Positions 5,977 through 15,895 of a stretch of 64,000 nucleotides of DNA are shown here, one piece after another. Positions within the stretch are counted from its first letter, which is position 1. Each line of letters begins with the position of its first letter. This DNA is from Acidobacteriaceae bacterium (GTDB lineage: Bacteria; Acidobacteriota; Terriglobia; Terriglobales; Acidobacteriaceae), in the NCBI GenBank assembly GCA_030041305.1, contig JASHOC010000276.1:1-64000 (forward strand), given 5' to 3'. The position numbers and the translations under genes were made by a program. Below the pieces are notes generated by a model. That model made no database searches. It had not been told where the DNA came from and was given only the letters and a program-made list of their open reading frames with translations.

Positions 5977-6081
5977 TGGTGAGGGCGCGGCTAACCATGC
6001 TTCGCCAAGGCGCGCTGCCGCATGTGGTCGTGGCGGCGGGCCCGCCGGGGAGAGAACTTGGTTCGGCCGAAAGGAGGAAAA

Positions 6082-7218
6082 ATGCCAAGGGCGTTTTTCT
6101 ATCTCCTGGCTTTGCTGTGTGCGCTTTCCTGTTGCGGGGCGTCTGGTCAGTCGGCGGCTTCAGCCGCCGCGCCACAGCAAGATTTTTACACCTCCTACTA
6201 TGTGTCCACCGGAAACTCATTGCAGTTGGTGAACGGGAACCCGGATGGCGCGAACTACGCCGAATGGCAGGTCTGGCTTTACCCCTGGAGTGTGCGCATC
6301 TCACGATCCGGCTCGGGACTCAAATACACGCGCTGGGGAGCGCTCCAGGGACCAACAGCCCGAGCCGTGATGAGCCAGCTTGTCGATTACCAGCAATTCG
6401 AGCGGGCGTATGTGAGTTTTTTCGGAGCGGACACGTGGGGAAGATTCACCTTCGCCTATCCGATAGGGCCCATTGCGGTGGCGGAACAAGGACCAATGGA
6501 CGATCCGCATGGGCTGCTTTGGAAAATCGGCCTCCTGAATCAGCGGCTGGAATCGGCGGTTGTTGAGCTGCATCTCTCCCTCGTAAACGGAGAAGGCGCC
6601 GAACCGCCTCCCCGGGTTCAACAGCCGTTCGAACAGTTGCGCAACTCGATGCAGGGCGCAGCTCGTTTTTATGACGAGTTATCGCGGTTTCCCGGGAAGT
6701 ATAACTATCTCGATGAAGTGTTGGCGCGTCTGGCCCCCGGCGTCAACCAGCTAGATAGCGCGATTCCAGAAGTGACAGCTATGCTGCCCACCGTGAAATT
6801 GCCCGCCGGCAGAGACTGGATGAAACACTCGGAGAACGGAGGCAGCGACGGAACGATCGACGTGACGGTTCAGGAGATTGGTTCGAGCGCCTGGGTGGAG
6901 CAGGAATGGACGGGCGGCGACGGCAGCATGGCGGGCACGAAAATCATCACCATCGTGCCATACCAGGACATTGGCGCCCTGGATGTGTGGACGCCGCGTT
7001 TCGGTGACGATCGGAAATGGAGCGTACGAATTCAGGCGGCGGATGCGAACGGTTTTCCGCAAAGTGTCACCAGCCCTCAACGCGCATCTGTCAAGCGCAC
7101 CTATAAGGCGGTCGACTTGAAGACGAGCGTAGCGTCCATCTTTCTGGACTTCTCCAATGCCCGCGATGCTCAGGACGCCTATGCATTTTTCCTTTACCAT
7201 AAAGAACGCGGGCTATAG
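6082..7218 (+). CDS. Exported protein of unknown function
   Basis: 378 aa. I start it at MPRAFFYLLALL because AAGGAGG sits 4-5 bases upstream of this ATG; the longer ORF-track start lacks this. The N-terminus is a signal peptide (hydrophobic residues ~5-18, 'LSCCGASGQS'), with Cys residues that could allow lipidation, although the lipobox is not canonical. The mature part is rich in Trp and Tyr and begins 'DFYTSYYVSTGNSLQLVNG'. I recognise no domain or catalytic motif. Likely periplasmic or membrane-anchored. It appears monocistronic, 135 bases after msrA and 260 before the hydrolase gene. Confidence 0.8.
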   Translation: MPRAFFYLLALLCALSCCGASGQSAASAAAPQQDFYTSYYVSTGNSLQLVNGNPDGANYAEWQVWLYPWSVRISRSGSGLKYTRWGALQGPTARAVMSQLVDYQQFERAYVSFFGADTWGRFTFAYPIGPIAVAEQGPMDDPHGLLWKIGLLNQRLESAVVELHLSLVNGEGAEPPPRVQQPFEQLRNSMQGAARFYDELSRFPGKYNYLDEVLARLAPGVNQLDSAIPEVTAMLPTVKLPAGRDWMKHSENGGSDGTIDVTVQEIGSSAWVEQEWTGGDGSMAGTKIITIVPYQDIGALDVWTPRFGDDRKWSVRIQAADANGFPQSVTSPQRASVKRTYKAVDLKTSVASIFLDFSNARDAQDAYAFFLYHKERGL

Positions 7219-9830: not shown

Positions 9831-10553
9831 CTACTCAACCAGGGGCTTGGCTTTGCCCAGGCGAATGTTGAAGCCGACGATCGAGCCCCAGACGTTGATG
9901 CCGTAATCGTAATATTTGGGCTGGGACAGGTAGAGGTTGGAGACGTGCTGGTAGCTCGCGCCGGCCTCGACGCTGAAGCGAGGGTTGAGGTCATAGCGTA
10001 TCCCGCCGCCATTCATCAGCGTAAAGGTCAGATCCTGCCCCTGGGCGTAGCGCACTCCGTCTGGCCCCCTGGCGTTGATGTTGCCTACACCACCGTGGGC
10101 GTCAAAGTAAGGGATCAGCCTCCAGTTGGGGCGAATGAAGTTACGGCGTATTCCAAACAGAAACGCAAAATAGCGCGTCTCCGGGCCGCGCGCCACGTCC
10201 ACATAGGACCCGCTGAAGGTGTAGTCGGTGCTGCCGCGCAGAATGCTCGGCCAGCCGATGTTATCGATGGTCCAGCGGGCGGAAGCAATGTTGGGTTCCA
10301 GTGTGTAATGGAGCGGCCAGGTGGTATACGTGCTGCCGGTCGCGAAGTTATAGACGAAGGGGATATTGATGGGCTCCCAGCCAGATTCGAGGGAGAACTC
10401 CATTTTGTTCCTATAGAAGATGTTGCGGTTAAAGTCTCCTGGGCTCGGGAAGAAGAAGAAGTTGTGAATAGGGTGACTCGTGGGCTCCTGGGCTTCTGCG
10501 AAGCCGGCGAAAAGGGCGAATAAAAGCGCGAAAGACAGGTGCTTTGAAAGCAT
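9831..10553 (-). CDS. PagL-like lipid A 3-O-deacylase (acyloxyacyl hydrolase)
   Basis: 240 aa. I start it at MLSKHLSFALLFALFAG, which has a GGGAG box 10 bases upstream and gives a clean signal peptide (cleavage near 'AEA-QEP'). The longer ORF-track start is rejected. The mature protein is built of amphipathic strands and ends 'GFNIRLGKAKPLVE'. The segment 'YQHVSNLYLSQP' matches the PagL active site, where neighbouring His and Ser with a downstream acidic residue remove the 3-O acyl chain of lipid A in the outer membrane. The gene therefore implies a lipid-A-bearing outer membrane. It may share a transcript with the downstream dehydrogenase gene. Confidence 0.8.
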   Translation of the reverse strand: MLSKHLSFALLFALFAGFAEAQEPTSHPIHNFFFFPSPGDFNRNIFYRNKMEFSLESGWEPINIPFVYNFATGSTYTTWPLHYTLEPNIASARWTIDNIGWPSILRGSTDYTFSGSYVDVARGPETRYFAFLFGIRRNFIRPNWRLIPYFDAHGGVGNINARGPDGVRYAQGQDLTFTLMNGGGIRYDLNPRFSVEAGASYQHVSNLYLSQPKYYDYGINVWGSIVGFNIRLGKAKPLVE

Positions 10554-10880
10554 CGCGATGGAACTCCCGTTCCGAAACCAGATTCTGGAGAATGGCGTGA
10601 TGAAATATCGGCGCGCCTCCCGGCCAGCCCAGGGAAGGCGAAAGCTCGTCCGTTGCCGTAAGGCCGGCAACCCGGAACTTAACCAATAGTAAACATGCGA
10701 GCGTTCTGTGGGCATATTCGTAATTTCCCTGCAGGCGACGACACACTCGCGATCTCTCGCGGTCGACTTGGAGCTTAGCTGCTTCTGTGGGTGAGCCGTA
10801 CAAAGCAACGTTTCCAGTGGGGTCGAAGGTCCGGGTCGCTGATGCTGCCACTCTGGATCCTGGTTCCGCTTCGTCTCTGC
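10554..10880. other. Intergenic region upstream of the PagL-like gene
   Basis: About 330 bases with no convincing gene. The ORF at 10429-11151 in another frame has a shadow-like composition and overlaps the PagL signal peptide. No structured RNA recognised. Confidence 0.45.
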
Positions 10881-11009
10881 TCATACTAGAAAGCCAGCCC
10901 ACAAAGCTAAGATGATGGGAGCGATCGTCACGGCAGCTTTTACGAATCCATTGGGCCTGTTCGTGGCGGCGACGTAATATGCGAGTCCAATGCACGCTGC
11001 GCAGATCAT
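10881..11009 (-). CDS. Possible 42-aa small membrane protein
   Basis: An ORF too short for the track, beginning 'MICAACIGLAYYVAATN' and ending 'PIILALWAGFLV'. Two hydrophobic segments separated by a short polar turn suggest a two-pass microprotein. Its ATG overlaps the stop of the short upstream ORF in an ATGA arrangement, which may mean translational coupling or that both are halves of one frameshifted gene. No homologue recognised. Confidence 0.35.
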   Translation of the reverse strand: MICAACIGLAYYVAATNRPNGFVKAAVTIAPIILALWAGFLV

Positions 11010-11065
11010 GAGCGTCCACGATTTTTGAACAGGCGCCCGGCGTAGGTAAGAATGAGCTCCAGCAT
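11006..11065 (-). CDS. Possible 19-aa leader or N-terminal fragment coupled to the small membrane ORF
   Basis: Short ORF 'MLELILTYAGRLFKNRGRS' with GGGGAAA a few bases before its ATG, ending in an ATGA overlap with the 42-aa ORF. If the two were fused by a one-base shift they would give a ~60-aa small membrane protein. Evidence is thin. Confidence 0.25.
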   Translation of the reverse strand: MLELILTYAGRLFKNRGRS

Positions 11066-11265
11066 GGCTTTCCCCATGCTGACACCAGGAGCCGCAAAGA
11101 GTCTATGAGCCTTTGTAATGCGGTAGGCGCGGCATGGGGATAACGCCGCACTCCGAATTAGGATACTGCCCGGCGCCGCACCCCGTTGACAAGCAGCCGA
11201 CAGATTGCGAAAATCGGTCCCTGCAACCGGCATTTCGCCAAAATCCGGAATGAGGCGTCGGCAAG

Positions 11266-13077
11266 ATGACCAACCCGCCTGCACCATCGACTGCCGATTT
11301 ACCGCGCAAACCCTCCAGTTTTTGGACCGGCAAGGTCACCGCGGATGTTTCGGTGGGCGCCTTGGGAGGGTCGTCGACGCTTCAAGGCGACCTCGACATA
11401 TCGATACTTCCGGAGGGCCTCCCGCTGCCCGCGGCGTTGACCCAGGCGTCCGCCGAGTCTTCTTCGGGCGGAACAAGCGCTGGCCCGCCTCCCCCGCCGC
11501 CCCCTACGTTGCCTACAGTATTTGGAACCCTGACCGCAACATTCAGCGCCCGGTGGAGCAACGACGGCGCTTCAGCCCAAGGCAGCGGAACCATGTACTA
11601 TGGGGTCGGCGGGACCTACGACCCCAATGCTCACGCCGTCAGTCTTACGCTGGCGACCACCGGGATTCAGTTGACCGGCACGCTGACGCGGCAGGACGGC
11701 ACTACCCAGTCTCTCGCGCTCAGCACGGGCGGATCCCTCGGACCTCTGGGCACACCGGACATCCCCGGCTCAAGTCCTGCACCTTTACCCCAGGTTGGTG
11801 GGGACGATGGGCAACTCTCGTTTTGTCTACCTGCCGCCACCAGCAACCAGCAGCCGATCACTTTAAACCTGCAGGTTTCTGGCGGTCAGGCCATCACCCA
11901 GAATTCGCAGGGGGACGATTCCTACCACGCCTCGCGAACGGTGCATTGGAGCTACACACTTGACCCTCACCAGATCACGGTGGATATAAGCCCAAATCAA
12001 CTTGACCCAACCCAAGATCCCAGCGCAACCCTCACCGTCACGGTCACTTCAAACGGGCAGCCTTCGAAGATGGAGACTGTCAATTTGGAAATTTGCACAT
12101 ATATTGGGGGAACGAGCGATGACGACATCCACGCACCGGACGGTCATACGCACGACAGCCGCGGGGATATGTGTGACCGAACCAGCCGACCAACGGGTCA
12201 ATTGCAGGACACGGAAGGTCTCGCAGGGCCTCCCGGCCAGACCTATGGAGCTAAAGATTACCCATTGAAAGCCACAACTGGAATGGACGGCAAGGTAACG
12301 ATGACCTACACCCCTCCTTGCGACCCTACGAATAGCGCCTTGTACTTCGCGGCCAAGGAGCAGATCAAGGCCTGTTTGCTTACTGCGCCGAACACCAAGA
12401 ACAGCACGGACATTACGACAAAGGTGGACCTCCTTCAACCTGCTTCTGGCTCGCAGGATGGCTCGGGCGGCGGGACCTTCTACTTCTCCGGCCAATCCAA
12501 TCACGGGGAATTCGATGACGACACGGGTCTCTACTATGGGACCGACTCCACCAACCAGACCCTGGTGCAGATTGCCAACGACTTTTACAACGCGCAGATA
12601 GCGTGCAGAAACGGCGCATCGGCGCAGGATGTCCTGCCTGCGAACTATCCCCACAACGGTTACACCACCGATCCGGCTACAAATACTCCAAGAACCTTCA
12701 CGACGCCCGGCGAGCCCATGCGGCTCAGGATTACCGCTATGAGCCTGCCTTGGGGCGGTCTGCTCGACATAACAGGCAACTGGAAGCATCCGCACAGCTC
12801 GCACAGCACAGGGAGGGTAGCCGATCTTGGATGGCAGGATTTTGCTCTCGCCGGGGTGACCAACACTGCTCCCGGCGGTTCCACGCGGGCCTGGAACATG
12901 GATCTGGTGTACCTGTTGGGCGCAATCGTCACCAGCACGCCGGGCGCGACGCTAAGCGTCTCATACGAAGGCGGAGACCTCAGCACCACCCTGGAATGGT
13001 TCTCGGGCAATCTCACCATAGGCGGCCAGAAGGGGAGTCCTGAAAACGCGCATTTTCACGTCCAGTTTGCAAGTTAG
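11266..13077 (+). CDS. Unknown 603-aa protein with a C-terminal LAS-metallopeptidase-like motif set
   Basis: A TGA lies five codons before this ATG, so no N-terminal extension or signal peptide exists upstream. Residues 1-55 are Pro/Ser/Gly-rich with 'DVSVGALGGSSTLQGD'. A Pro-rich linker (PPPPPPPT, ~77-84) precedes Ig-like beta-rich sequence with a 'DPSATLTVTVTSNGQ' strand pair (~235-255). The last ~120 residues carry 'SSHSTGRVADLGW' and finally 'AHFHVQF'. The HxxxxxxD plus HxH spacing is the zinc-ligand pattern of LAS peptidases (VanX, MepA, D-Ala-D-Ala carboxypeptidases). Peptidase activity is inferred only. It is flanked by unrelated genes and has no clear ribosome-binding site. Confidence 0.65.
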   Translation: MTNPPAPSTADLPRKPSSFWTGKVTADVSVGALGGSSTLQGDLDISILPEGLPLPAALTQASAESSSGGTSAGPPPPPPPTLPTVFGTLTATFSARWSNDGASAQGSGTMYYGVGGTYDPNAHAVSLTLATTGIQLTGTLTRQDGTTQSLALSTGGSLGPLGTPDIPGSSPAPLPQVGGDDGQLSFCLPAATSNQQPITLNLQVSGGQAITQNSQGDDSYHASRTVHWSYTLDPHQITVDISPNQLDPTQDPSATLTVTVTSNGQPSKMETVNLEICTYIGGTSDDDIHAPDGHTHDSRGDMCDRTSRPTGQLQDTEGLAGPPGQTYGAKDYPLKATTGMDGKVTMTYTPPCDPTNSALYFAAKEQIKACLLTAPNTKNSTDITTKVDLLQPASGSQDGSGGGTFYFSGQSNHGEFDDDTGLYYGTDSTNQTLVQIANDFYNAQIACRNGASAQDVLPANYPHNGYTTDPATNTPRTFTTPGEPMRLRITAMSLPWGGLLDITGNWKHPHSSHSTGRVADLGWQDFALAGVTNTAPGGSTRAWNMDLVYLLGAIVTSTPGATLSVSYEGGDLSTTLEWFSGNLTIGGQKGSPENAHFHVQFAS

Positions 13078-13147: not shown

Positions 13148-13954
13148 TCAGGTTGCAGCTCGAGCGGCCGGTTTGGCGATGCGTGGAGCGGACGATTCCG
13201 CGCCGTCTGCCCTCGCGCCCGGCTCGTCGCACCACAGACAAACGATCCACCAGATGAGAACGCATAAATAGACGATGTCGTTGGCCGAATACATGCGGTC
13301 GCGCACCGTCATGAGGCTGTCGTACTGGGCGCGGCTGTGCACGACGGCTTTGAGCGTGATGGCCTGCCAGGCGCCACGCACGGCGAGTTGCGCCGCGGCC
13401 ACTGCGGCGAGGCCCAGAACGATGCGGTGCACGTGGCTGCGCCAGCCGGCGTGAAAGCGGCGGCCGAAGAACACGACCAGGAAGGCCAGCTCAATGGCGA
13501 GCATGCCGGCGAGCAGGTCGCCCTTCTCGGCGGCCATCTGCATGCGGCGCAGCGTGGCCAAGGTGGAGGAGGCCCTGAGCGTGGCCCAGGAAGGCCACGG
13601 ACCCCAGACGGCCAGCGCTGTTCCGCTTACGGCGAGCGCCGCGAGGGTGACGCCGATCGCGGCCCACCGTGAGGCTTGGGCAAAGGCGGTTCGCGCCATT
13701 TCCACAATGACGAGCAGGGCGGCCAGGACGCCCAAGTCAGCGAGAGTGAGGAGAATCTCGCTCAGAACCAGAGGCTTGATGCGGTTGAAAAGGAGGCGGG
13801 TGACGAGCAGGCGGAGGGTCACGACGGCGATGCTGGCCATGAAAAGGGGAAAACGCCGCGCCCGGTCACGCCCGAGCAGCACCACGAGCAACACGAGCAA
13901 GGCGGCAAAGGTCAGCGTCCAAAGAACCTGATCGGTCGAAAGGTGAAAGTGCAT
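13148..13954 (-). CDS. Multi-pass membrane protein of unknown function
   Basis: 268 aa. I start it at MHFHLSTDQVLWTLTFAAL, which has AAGGA about 6 bases upstream. The ORF-track start adds 49 residues of low-complexity sequence. About seven hydrophobic segments are visible (for example 'LWTLTFAALLVLLVVLLG', 'LTLADLGVLAALLVIVEMA', 'GMLAIELAFLVVFFGRRF', 'VYLCVLIWWIVCLW'). A short Ala/Arg-rich tail follows. No transporter or enzyme motif is recognisable. It converges with the LAS-like gene with 70 bases between. Confidence 0.75.
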   Translation of the reverse strand: MHFHLSTDQVLWTLTFAALLVLLVVLLGRDRARRFPLFMASIAVVTLRLLVTRLLFNRIKPLVLSEILLTLADLGVLAALLVIVEMARTAFAQASRWAAIGVTLAALAVSGTALAVWGPWPSWATLRASSTLATLRRMQMAAEKGDLLAGMLAIELAFLVVFFGRRFHAGWRSHVHRIVLGLAAVAAAQLAVRGAWQAITLKAVVHSRAQYDSLMTVRDRMYSANDIVYLCVLIWWIVCLWCDEPGARADGAESSAPRIAKPAARAAT

Positions 13955-14078
13955 CGCATCCTTGCCGGGCCTTCCCAACTGCTGTGCGGGCCCCGCTCTC
14001 AGTTTATAGGGACGATGGCCCGCGAGCGAAGACGAACTGGCGGGATAAGGCCGGCTGACGGCTTCAATCCTGGCGGTT

Positions 14079-14160
14079 GTAAACAACCTTTCTTTGACCA
14101 TTCATCGTTTGTTCATTTTTGACTGCTATGGTCGTTGGGGTTGTTTACCGTCTGGTCAAA
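14079..14160. promoter_or_regulatory. Paired dyad sites upstream of the secreted propeller-like gene
   Basis: GTAAACAACC (14079-14088) is exactly inverted as GGTTGTTTAC at 14139-14148, and TTTGACCA (14093-14100) is exactly inverted as TGGTCAAA at 14153-14160. Each half therefore holds the same two words with the same 4-nt gap but opposite word orientation. The first half also contains GGTTGT-AA-ACAACC. The array ends about 30 bases before the start codon, where a regulator could bind. Confidence 0.4.
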
Positions 14161-14191
14161 TTCTCATGGAAAGCCTCAGGAGGAGACTCGT

Positions 14192-15895
14192 ATGAAATTC
14201 CATGCGTTGAGCGGCTATTTCCTGCGCCGTTTGCCGTCGCGCGTCGTGGTCGCCGCGAGTTTGGCGGCAGCCGCCTTCCCCATGACCGTTTCCGCACAGC
14301 AGTTCGGCCGCCAGCCAGAATTCCAGTTCTATCCCGGGAATCTGGTGGTGAGCCGCAGCGTGTATGACAATGTTGCCGGCAACGTGACCGTCGGCGAACA
14401 ACTGCCGCCCAATTGTACGAGCGGCAATTGCGTCTCAGCCATCAACAACGGGCTTTTCCCGTACGTCTTTAATAACGCCACCGTCGACGGCAGCTTCGGC
14501 ATCACCTCGCGCCTGTATCTCGACCAGATGACGCCCTGGGGTTTGCCGATCGATTCGCTGGAAGTTCCCAATAACCTGATGCGTGGCGTCACCGGCTCAA
14601 GCGATCATTTGGTCACCAGCTTCAGCTCCAAATCGGAGGGGGCGCTGAATCTGTCGACCGACGACAGATATTTGACCTTCATCGATTACGTGGCGGATGT
14701 GAACACCATCGACGTTTCCAACGCCAACACGCCCGGAGACATCGATCCCACCAATCCTGTTCCCGGGGCGTACTACCGGGCCGCCGCCACCGTCGACCGC
14801 TTTGGACGCTTCAGCTTTACCGAGACCAACGCCTACAGCGGGAACAATGGCCGCGCAGTCATTCTCAACAATACGTATGGCAACCCAGTGTTTTACAGCG
14901 CCGGAAACGCGGGCAACGGCAGCAGCCCCCAGCCCAACGGCATCATTCTCGGCGCGGGCGCCCAGATCTTCGACCGGTTGCATGAACCCGAGGCGAACCA
15001 GGCTCCCAGCCAGCCAACGCCGGTGGGCAGCTTTTCCGTGACCCTTTTAGGAGACAAGGCCGATAAGATCGGCAAAGATGACAACTTCCGCGGCCTGAGA
15101 CTCTTCAACAATGTGTTGTACTTTACGAAAGGCAGCGGCGGCAACGGCGTGAACACGGTGTACTTTGTCGACACCACGGGCGCGGCCTGTCCGAACGGCG
15201 TGGGTTTGCCCTCGCCTTCCGCCAAGTTGCCGACAGCGCCTCTCAGCTATGATCCATCGACGCTCGAGACCACCGGCCTGCCCAGCAACATGTGCATCCT
15301 GAAGGGCTTCTCCACCACGCTCGCCAAATCGTCGACCGGCGTCCTCTATCCCTTTGGCCTGTGGTTCGCGAACGCGACCACTCTTTACGTGGCCGATGAG
15401 GGCGACGGCTATAGCGGTCCCGACGATATTTACACGCACGCAGCGGGGCAAACCACGGCCGGCCTGCAAAAATGGGTTTTCAACTCTTCCACCGGAGAGT
15501 GGACGATGGCCTATGTTTTGACCAACGGGCTCGACCTCGGCGCGCCGTACACGGTTCCCGGCTATCCGACAGGGACGAACTCAGTGACCGGACAGCCCTG
15601 GTCACCGACGACGGATGGGCTTCGGAACATTGTGGGCAGGGTGAATGACGACGGGACGGTGACGATCTGGGCAATCACCTCGACCACGAGCGGCGGCGGC
15701 GATACGGGCGCGGACCCGGATAAACTGGTGGTGATCACCGATAACCTGGCCAACACCAGCGGGACGGCTGCCGCCGGCGAGACGTTCATCACCTTGCGCA
15801 CCGCGGGATTTGGCGAAGTGCTGCGCGGCGTCTCCTTCACGCCGGGCGCCGGCCTCGATCACGATGGCGACGACGAATCCGGTTTTGGGCGATGA
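14192..15895 (+). CDS. Secreted protein of unknown function, probably beta-propeller-like
   Basis: 567 aa. The start at MKFHALSGYFLRRLP is set by AGGAGGA seven bases upstream. A signal peptide follows ('VVVAASLAAAAFPMTVSAQQ'). The mature sequence is rich in Asn, Gly, Ser and Thr with many short aromatic strands such as 'NVLYFTKGSG', 'TTLYVADEGDGYSGPDDIY' and 'LQKWVFNSSTGEWTMAYVL'. These resemble propeller blades of secreted choice-of-sequence or phytase/SMP-30-like proteins. Two pairs of Cys could form disulfides ('CTSGNC'). No catalytic motif is evident. The dyad array upstream suggests specific regulation. It is followed by a hairpin that may end its transcript. Confidence 0.75.
   Translation: MKFHALSGYFLRRLPSRVVVAASLAAAAFPMTVSAQQFGRQPEFQFYPGNLVVSRSVYDNVAGNVTVGEQLPPNCTSGNCVSAINNGLFPYVFNNATVDGSFGITSRLYLDQMTPWGLPIDSLEVPNNLMRGVTGSSDHLVTSFSSKSEGALNLSTDDRYLTFIDYVADVNTIDVSNANTPGDIDPTNPVPGAYYRAAATVDRFGRFSFTETNAYSGNNGRAVILNNTYGNPVFYSAGNAGNGSSPQPNGIILGAGAQIFDRLHEPEANQAPSQPTPVGSFSVTLLGDKADKIGKDDNFRGLRLFNNVLYFTKGSGGNGVNTVYFVDTTGAACPNGVGLPSPSAKLPTAPLSYDPSTLETTGLPSNMCILKGFSTTLAKSSTGVLYPFGLWFANATTLYVADEGDGYSGPDDIYTHAAGQTTAGLQKWVFNSSTGEWTMAYVLTNGLDLGAPYTVPGYPTGTNSVTGQPWSPTTDGLRNIVGRVNDDGTVTIWAITSTTSGGGDTGADPDKLVVITDNLANTSGTAAAGETFITLRTAGFGEVLRGVSFTPGAGLDHDGDDESGFGR

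Follow-up and report, generated by a model that had tools for sequence, protein, structure and literature searches.

The open reading frame (ORF) at positions 11266–13077 (plus strand) of a 64,000-nucleotide stretch of acidobacterial DNA, called the window here, begins with an ATG and encodes a 603-amino-acid protein that, judged from its sequence, is a divergent member of a family absent from both Pfam and NCBIfam. This uncatalogued family, named Ig-LAS, is the new part of the finding. In its architecture, a variable N-terminus would be followed by an Ig-like module with a GGHxH...RPxG motif and by a C-terminal zinc peptidase domain of the LAS type that resembles MepA, a member of peptidase family M74. 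Relatives of the protein almost always begin with an ordinary signal peptide, and the window copy, which has none, is probably a divergent member of this Sec-exported family whose 5′ end was lost or replaced.

Members and architecture of the Ig-LAS family

A search of genomes from the phylum with the last 160 residues of the protein returned two relatives, and the resulting three-sequence alignment recovered wider relatives in Bacteroidota, Elusimicrobiota, Nitrospirota, Gallionella, Lindowbacteria, Spirochaetes, a Woesearchaeota archaeon and other Acidobacteriota. The family as recovered thus spans Acidobacteriota and at least seven other phyla. Its members have in common the motif ND(M/L)SLxxGGxFDI...W..PHxxHRxGxxxDI and, at the C-terminus, HxH or xxH. 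The window protein carries DGHTH and RPTG for the GGHxH...RPxG motif of the Ig-like module, and MSLPWGG and HSSHSTGRVAD in the LAS domain. Membership was assessed with a profile built from 18 relatives, from which the window sequence was left out to avoid circularity. The ORF scores E = 9.8e-17 against this profile, whereas none of 2,000 shuffled sequences and none of the 284 other ORFs of the window reaches E = 10. The divergence of the window copy is visible in the MSLPWGG signature (residues 492–498, positions 12739–12759, plus strand), which is preceded by TA in place of the ND pair found before MSL in 28 of 30 alignment rows, and in the phylogenetic tree, where the copy stands alone on a long branch with no supported sister.

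The ORF, with a GC content by codon position of 0.56/0.55/0.68, can be divided into several parts, all on the plus strand. The N-terminal region (residues 1–230, positions 11266–11955) looks β-rich by eye, belongs to no known family and has no confident structural model. When 396 genomes of the phylum were searched with it, the only matches were weak and of low-complexity character (best E = 1.2e-4), so the region has no convincing counterpart among the genomes searched. Within this region, the translation contains a proline-rich linker (residues 73–83 with a proline run at 74–80, positions 11482–11514). An Ig-like β-sandwich follows at residues ~232–385 (positions 11959–12420), which AlphaFold2 models confidently (pLDDT mostly 80–90, with a weaker stretch at residues ~281–306) and which Foldseek matches to Ig-like domains of intimin/InvE, BgaA and other proteins; the relatives match Big_1 at sub-threshold scores. 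The order read earlier from the letters alone, in which a proline-rich linker and Ig-like segments precede the C-terminal domain, is therefore confirmed.

Inside the Ig-like module, the relatives' alignment places the GGHxH...RPxG motif at GHTH (residues 293–296) and RPTG (residues 308–311; positions 12142–12198 for the two together). The motif is near-invariant in the Ig-like module of the family, and most relatives carry this module upstream of the LAS domain. The two histidines of GGHxH are invariant across the aligned relatives even though they lie outside the LAS domain, and their role is perhaps in metal binding or latency.

One signal-bearing Ig-LAS protein (L043:3576-5483) is fused to a NosD-type β-helix and lies on a Woesearchaeota contig, where its neighbours, read by eye, resemble archaeal ribosomal protein and RpoD genes. 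Archaea lack peptidoglycan, and this protein may therefore be aimed at bacteria.

A LAS-type domain resembling MepA

The LAS-type domain occupies residues ~399–603 (positions 12460–13074, plus strand). Direct scans of the window protein against Pfam and NCBIfam models gave no match. The HxxxxxxD and final HxH described in the earlier note are present as H510-SS-H513-STG-RVA-D520 (positions 12793–12825), in which H513-x6-D520 supplies two predicted zinc ligands, and as H596-F-H598 (positions 13051–13059), a predicted catalytic histidine and third zinc ligand; both motifs are conserved in position across the family. The protein thus carries the H-x(3-6)-D and C-terminal H-x-H motifs of the LAS superfamily in the right order. 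Among 20,000 composition-preserving shuffles, the combination of Hx6D with a terminal HxH arises by chance in 0.4%, and that of HxxHxxGxxxD with a terminal HxH in 0.005%.

When the family profile was compared with PDB sequences, the best matches were MepA (1tzp, E = 0.093) followed by the N-domains of Sonic hedgehog, with E values of 0.09–0.8. The HASHQTGLDVD segment of MepA aligns column by column with the family HxxHxxGxxxD. In the numbering of the 1tzp chain, the aligned residues are His 94 and Asp 101, which correspond to H113 and D120 once the 19-residue signal is added, zinc ligands of MepA. An exoribonuclease chain reached a score equal to that of MepA, but its match covers the HxxH motif region alone and was taken as chance. 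A PDB search with the single window sequence matched UVR8 and IL-17RC, by chance only.

Pfam M74 is matched by 6 of 19 Ig-LAS members (best E = 8.4e-6). At the cut-off of the M74 model (PF03411), the window protein gives no match and the relatives that were scored are sub-threshold; no M74 gene was found in the source genome. Structural modelling points in the same direction as the profile. Because the full-length model is good in the Ig part only, residues 399–603 were modelled separately, which gave a model of moderate confidence (mean pLDDT 66, pTM 0.71). In a Foldseek comparison of this model with 350,542 chains, MepA came out on top (prob 0.75, E = 0.015, TM-score ~0.3), a match that weakly supports a LAS-type fold. 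On the basis of the relatives-only profile, the profile matches to solved structures and the Foldseek result, the C-terminal domain is of the LAS type, and the assignment made from the motifs in the earlier note is borne out.

MepA (PF03411, MEROPS M74) is the closest solved structure by both profile and fold, and the two have in common DM.(L/M)P.GG...HxxHxxGxxxDI, an HxH end and a LAS-type set of ligands. However, the window protein and most Ig-LAS members miss the M74 model or fall under its cut-off, and the family has an additional Ig-like GGHxH module. The window copy itself contains long inserts and has alanine in place of the conserved aspartate of DM; it also lacks the Sec signal peptide of periplasmic M74 enzymes, although this trait is present in most of its relatives. 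The N-domain of Sonic hedgehog, which has the LAS fold, gave the second-best profile matches and offers the same arrangement of H...D and C-terminal H ligands, but it belongs to a eukaryotic signal protein without such an Ig module, and the similarity is weak (E = 0.6). The D-Ala-D-Ala metallopeptidases of M15 and lysostaphin-type M23 enzymes follow the same motif logic of HxxxxxxD and HxH (ExxH in VanX; PMC3927764), whereas the window protein matches no M15 or M23 model in Pfam or NCBIfam.

MepA contains the H-x(3-6)-D motif as well as H-x-H (PMC3927764); it is zinc dependent and cleaves the D-Ala-mDAP bond (PMC6403190). In the scheme that we propose for the Ig-LAS family, H513, D520 and H598 of the LAS domain (window numbering) would coordinate a single zinc, and H596, which is Glu or another residue in some relatives, would lie near the catalytic water. 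The domain would then cut peptide bonds outside the cytoplasmic membrane, most likely in peptidoglycan.

The missing signal peptide

Both features of the 5′ end described in the earlier note hold. An in-frame TGA (positions 11251–11253, plus strand) closes the frame at the fifth codon before the ATG, and no signal-peptide-like or hydrophobic stretch is present in any of the three frames of positions 10500 to 11266, the 766 bases upstream of the ORF. A promoter-like sequence, TTGACA-17-GAAAAT (positions 11186–11214, plus strand), would place a short leader ahead of the ATG, although the two such sites found, against 0.9 expected, are within chance expectation, and we attach little weight to it as a possible promoter of the ORF. 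The surroundings of the ORF gave no match to an RNA family.

The relatives show what this 5′ end would normally encode. Signal peptides were called by charge and hydrophobicity, using a simple hydropathy scan rather than SignalP, for the 26 relatives whose start could be read. Of these, 22 have a clear signal peptide in frame at the N-terminus, and three more have a signal-bearing start just upstream, in another frame (L061/L080 and L067) or, in L041, behind an in-frame stop; the one remaining relative (L042) begins right after a transposase. Ordinary Sec export is thus the rule in the family. In L041, L067 and L080, the signal-bearing start is cut from the rest of the Ig-LAS gene by a frameshift or stop, which suggests recurrent decay or sequence errors. 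The relatives that lack a signal peptide in frame are thus apparently damaged genes or sequence errors. These observations argue against the unconventional export route that had been proposed for the window protein.

The composition of the window protein (K+R+E 6%, S+T+G+N 38%, six cysteines) is near that of the signal-bearing TonB-like protein and the protein encoded at ~14135–15892, and far from that of the cytoplasmic enzymes of the window; by this measure the protein appears to be of the extracellular type. Three neighbouring long ORFs without a Pfam match encode a membrane protein (13151–14101, minus strand), a signal-bearing Ser/Thr/Gly-rich protein (14135–15892, plus strand) and a further signal-bearing protein (6022–7215, plus strand).

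The gene is absent from 58 genomes of the same genus, and a whole-protein search of 99 relatives' genomes returned only itself; a single relative from the same taxonomic family (G556) is known. No relative of the protein was present in the viral contigs, phages and plasmids scanned, and a phage or plasmid origin is not indicated. This distribution and the long branch fit horizontal acquisition or repeated loss.

In four acidobacterial loci, the LAS gene is directly followed by a gene for a secreted protein (L033:2005-4017, L039:5285-6259, L067:1930-2961 and L080:4939-5928), and the N-terminal region 'YxYxYTxxxxxx' is common to the four products. Three of the four products were scanned against Pfam, and no family was matched except CARDB in L033. 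This secreted protein is a possible functional partner of the Ig-LAS protein. It was not found in the source genome, in a search that had no positive control.

The signal peptides of the relatives, the extracellular-type composition, the TA in place of ND and the lack of a partner gene together speak for a lost 5′ end rather than a new export route. These points, and the absence of the gene from the 58 same-genus genomes, count in favour of a 5′ end lost or replaced through truncation, decay or, less likely, assembly error, in which case the window copy may be non-functional or kept in the cytoplasm. Against such a loss, the 603-amino-acid frame is open and all predicted zinc ligands are kept, so the gene is more intact than would be expected of an old pseudogene, and the 766 bases upstream hold no remnant of a signal peptide.

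The same intact frame without a signal peptide could instead belong to a functional cytoplasmic protein, whose LAS domain acts on an internal substrate or binds without catalysis as in Sonic hedgehog. The replacement of the conserved ND by TA and the missing partner gene are compatible with this reading, but the extracellular-type composition with its six cysteines, the retained zinc ligands and the secreted ancestry make it unlikely.

More doubtful is that the protein is functional and leaves the cell by a Sec-independent route, for example as a peptidoglycan-cutting effector delivered by an extracellular contractile injection system (eCIS) or a type VI secretion system (T6SS). The source genome does encode the T6SS sheath protein VipB on another contig, and an eCIS locus on contig C144 (L078:634-12699, read by region) that comprises a tail sheath with four inserted Big_2 Ig-like domains, a gp19-like tube, an AAA ATPase and a 1115-aa eCIS_core protein with a long C-terminal extension. 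The composition of the window protein is extracellular-like and its N-terminus is polar, as in eCIS toxins, which bear polar N-terminal signals (PMC11297309). However, 88% of known eCIS toxins are encoded within ten genes of the eCIS operon (PMC11297309) and often carry DUF4157/eCIS_core, whereas the 64-kb window showed neither CIS nor T6SS genes, nor genes of any other secretion system, the protein has no Pfam match to eCIS_core, PAAR or VgrG, and its relatives use ordinary signal peptides. With the eCIS and T6SS genes on other contigs rather than near the window gene, injection is unsupported, though it keeps a low probability, and the suggestion of an injected or released effector in the earlier note finds no secretion gene nearby to sustain it.

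We give similarly low odds to an assembly or sequence error at the 5′ end of a gene that in reality has a signal peptide. The genome is a draft of 361 contigs, and several relatives have frameshifts or stops just past the signal peptide, but no signal-like stretch is present in any frame of the 766 upstream bases, so a single-base error would be insufficient. It is more improbable still that the GGHxH module provides the zinc site with extra ligands or latency and that the window copy, having shed its Sec signal, leaves the cell by a different route.

Implications of the family

The Ig-LAS proteins are candidate secreted cell-wall peptidases with an unusual histidine-bearing Ig module, found in many bacterial phyla and an archaeon, and some acidobacterial members adjoin a gene for a putative secreted partner. 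The signal-less copy in the window matters less than the family itself. It serves as a caution that relatives should be checked before a missing signal peptide is read as a new export route, because here the missing signal most likely reflects a lost gene front rather than a new way out of the cell.
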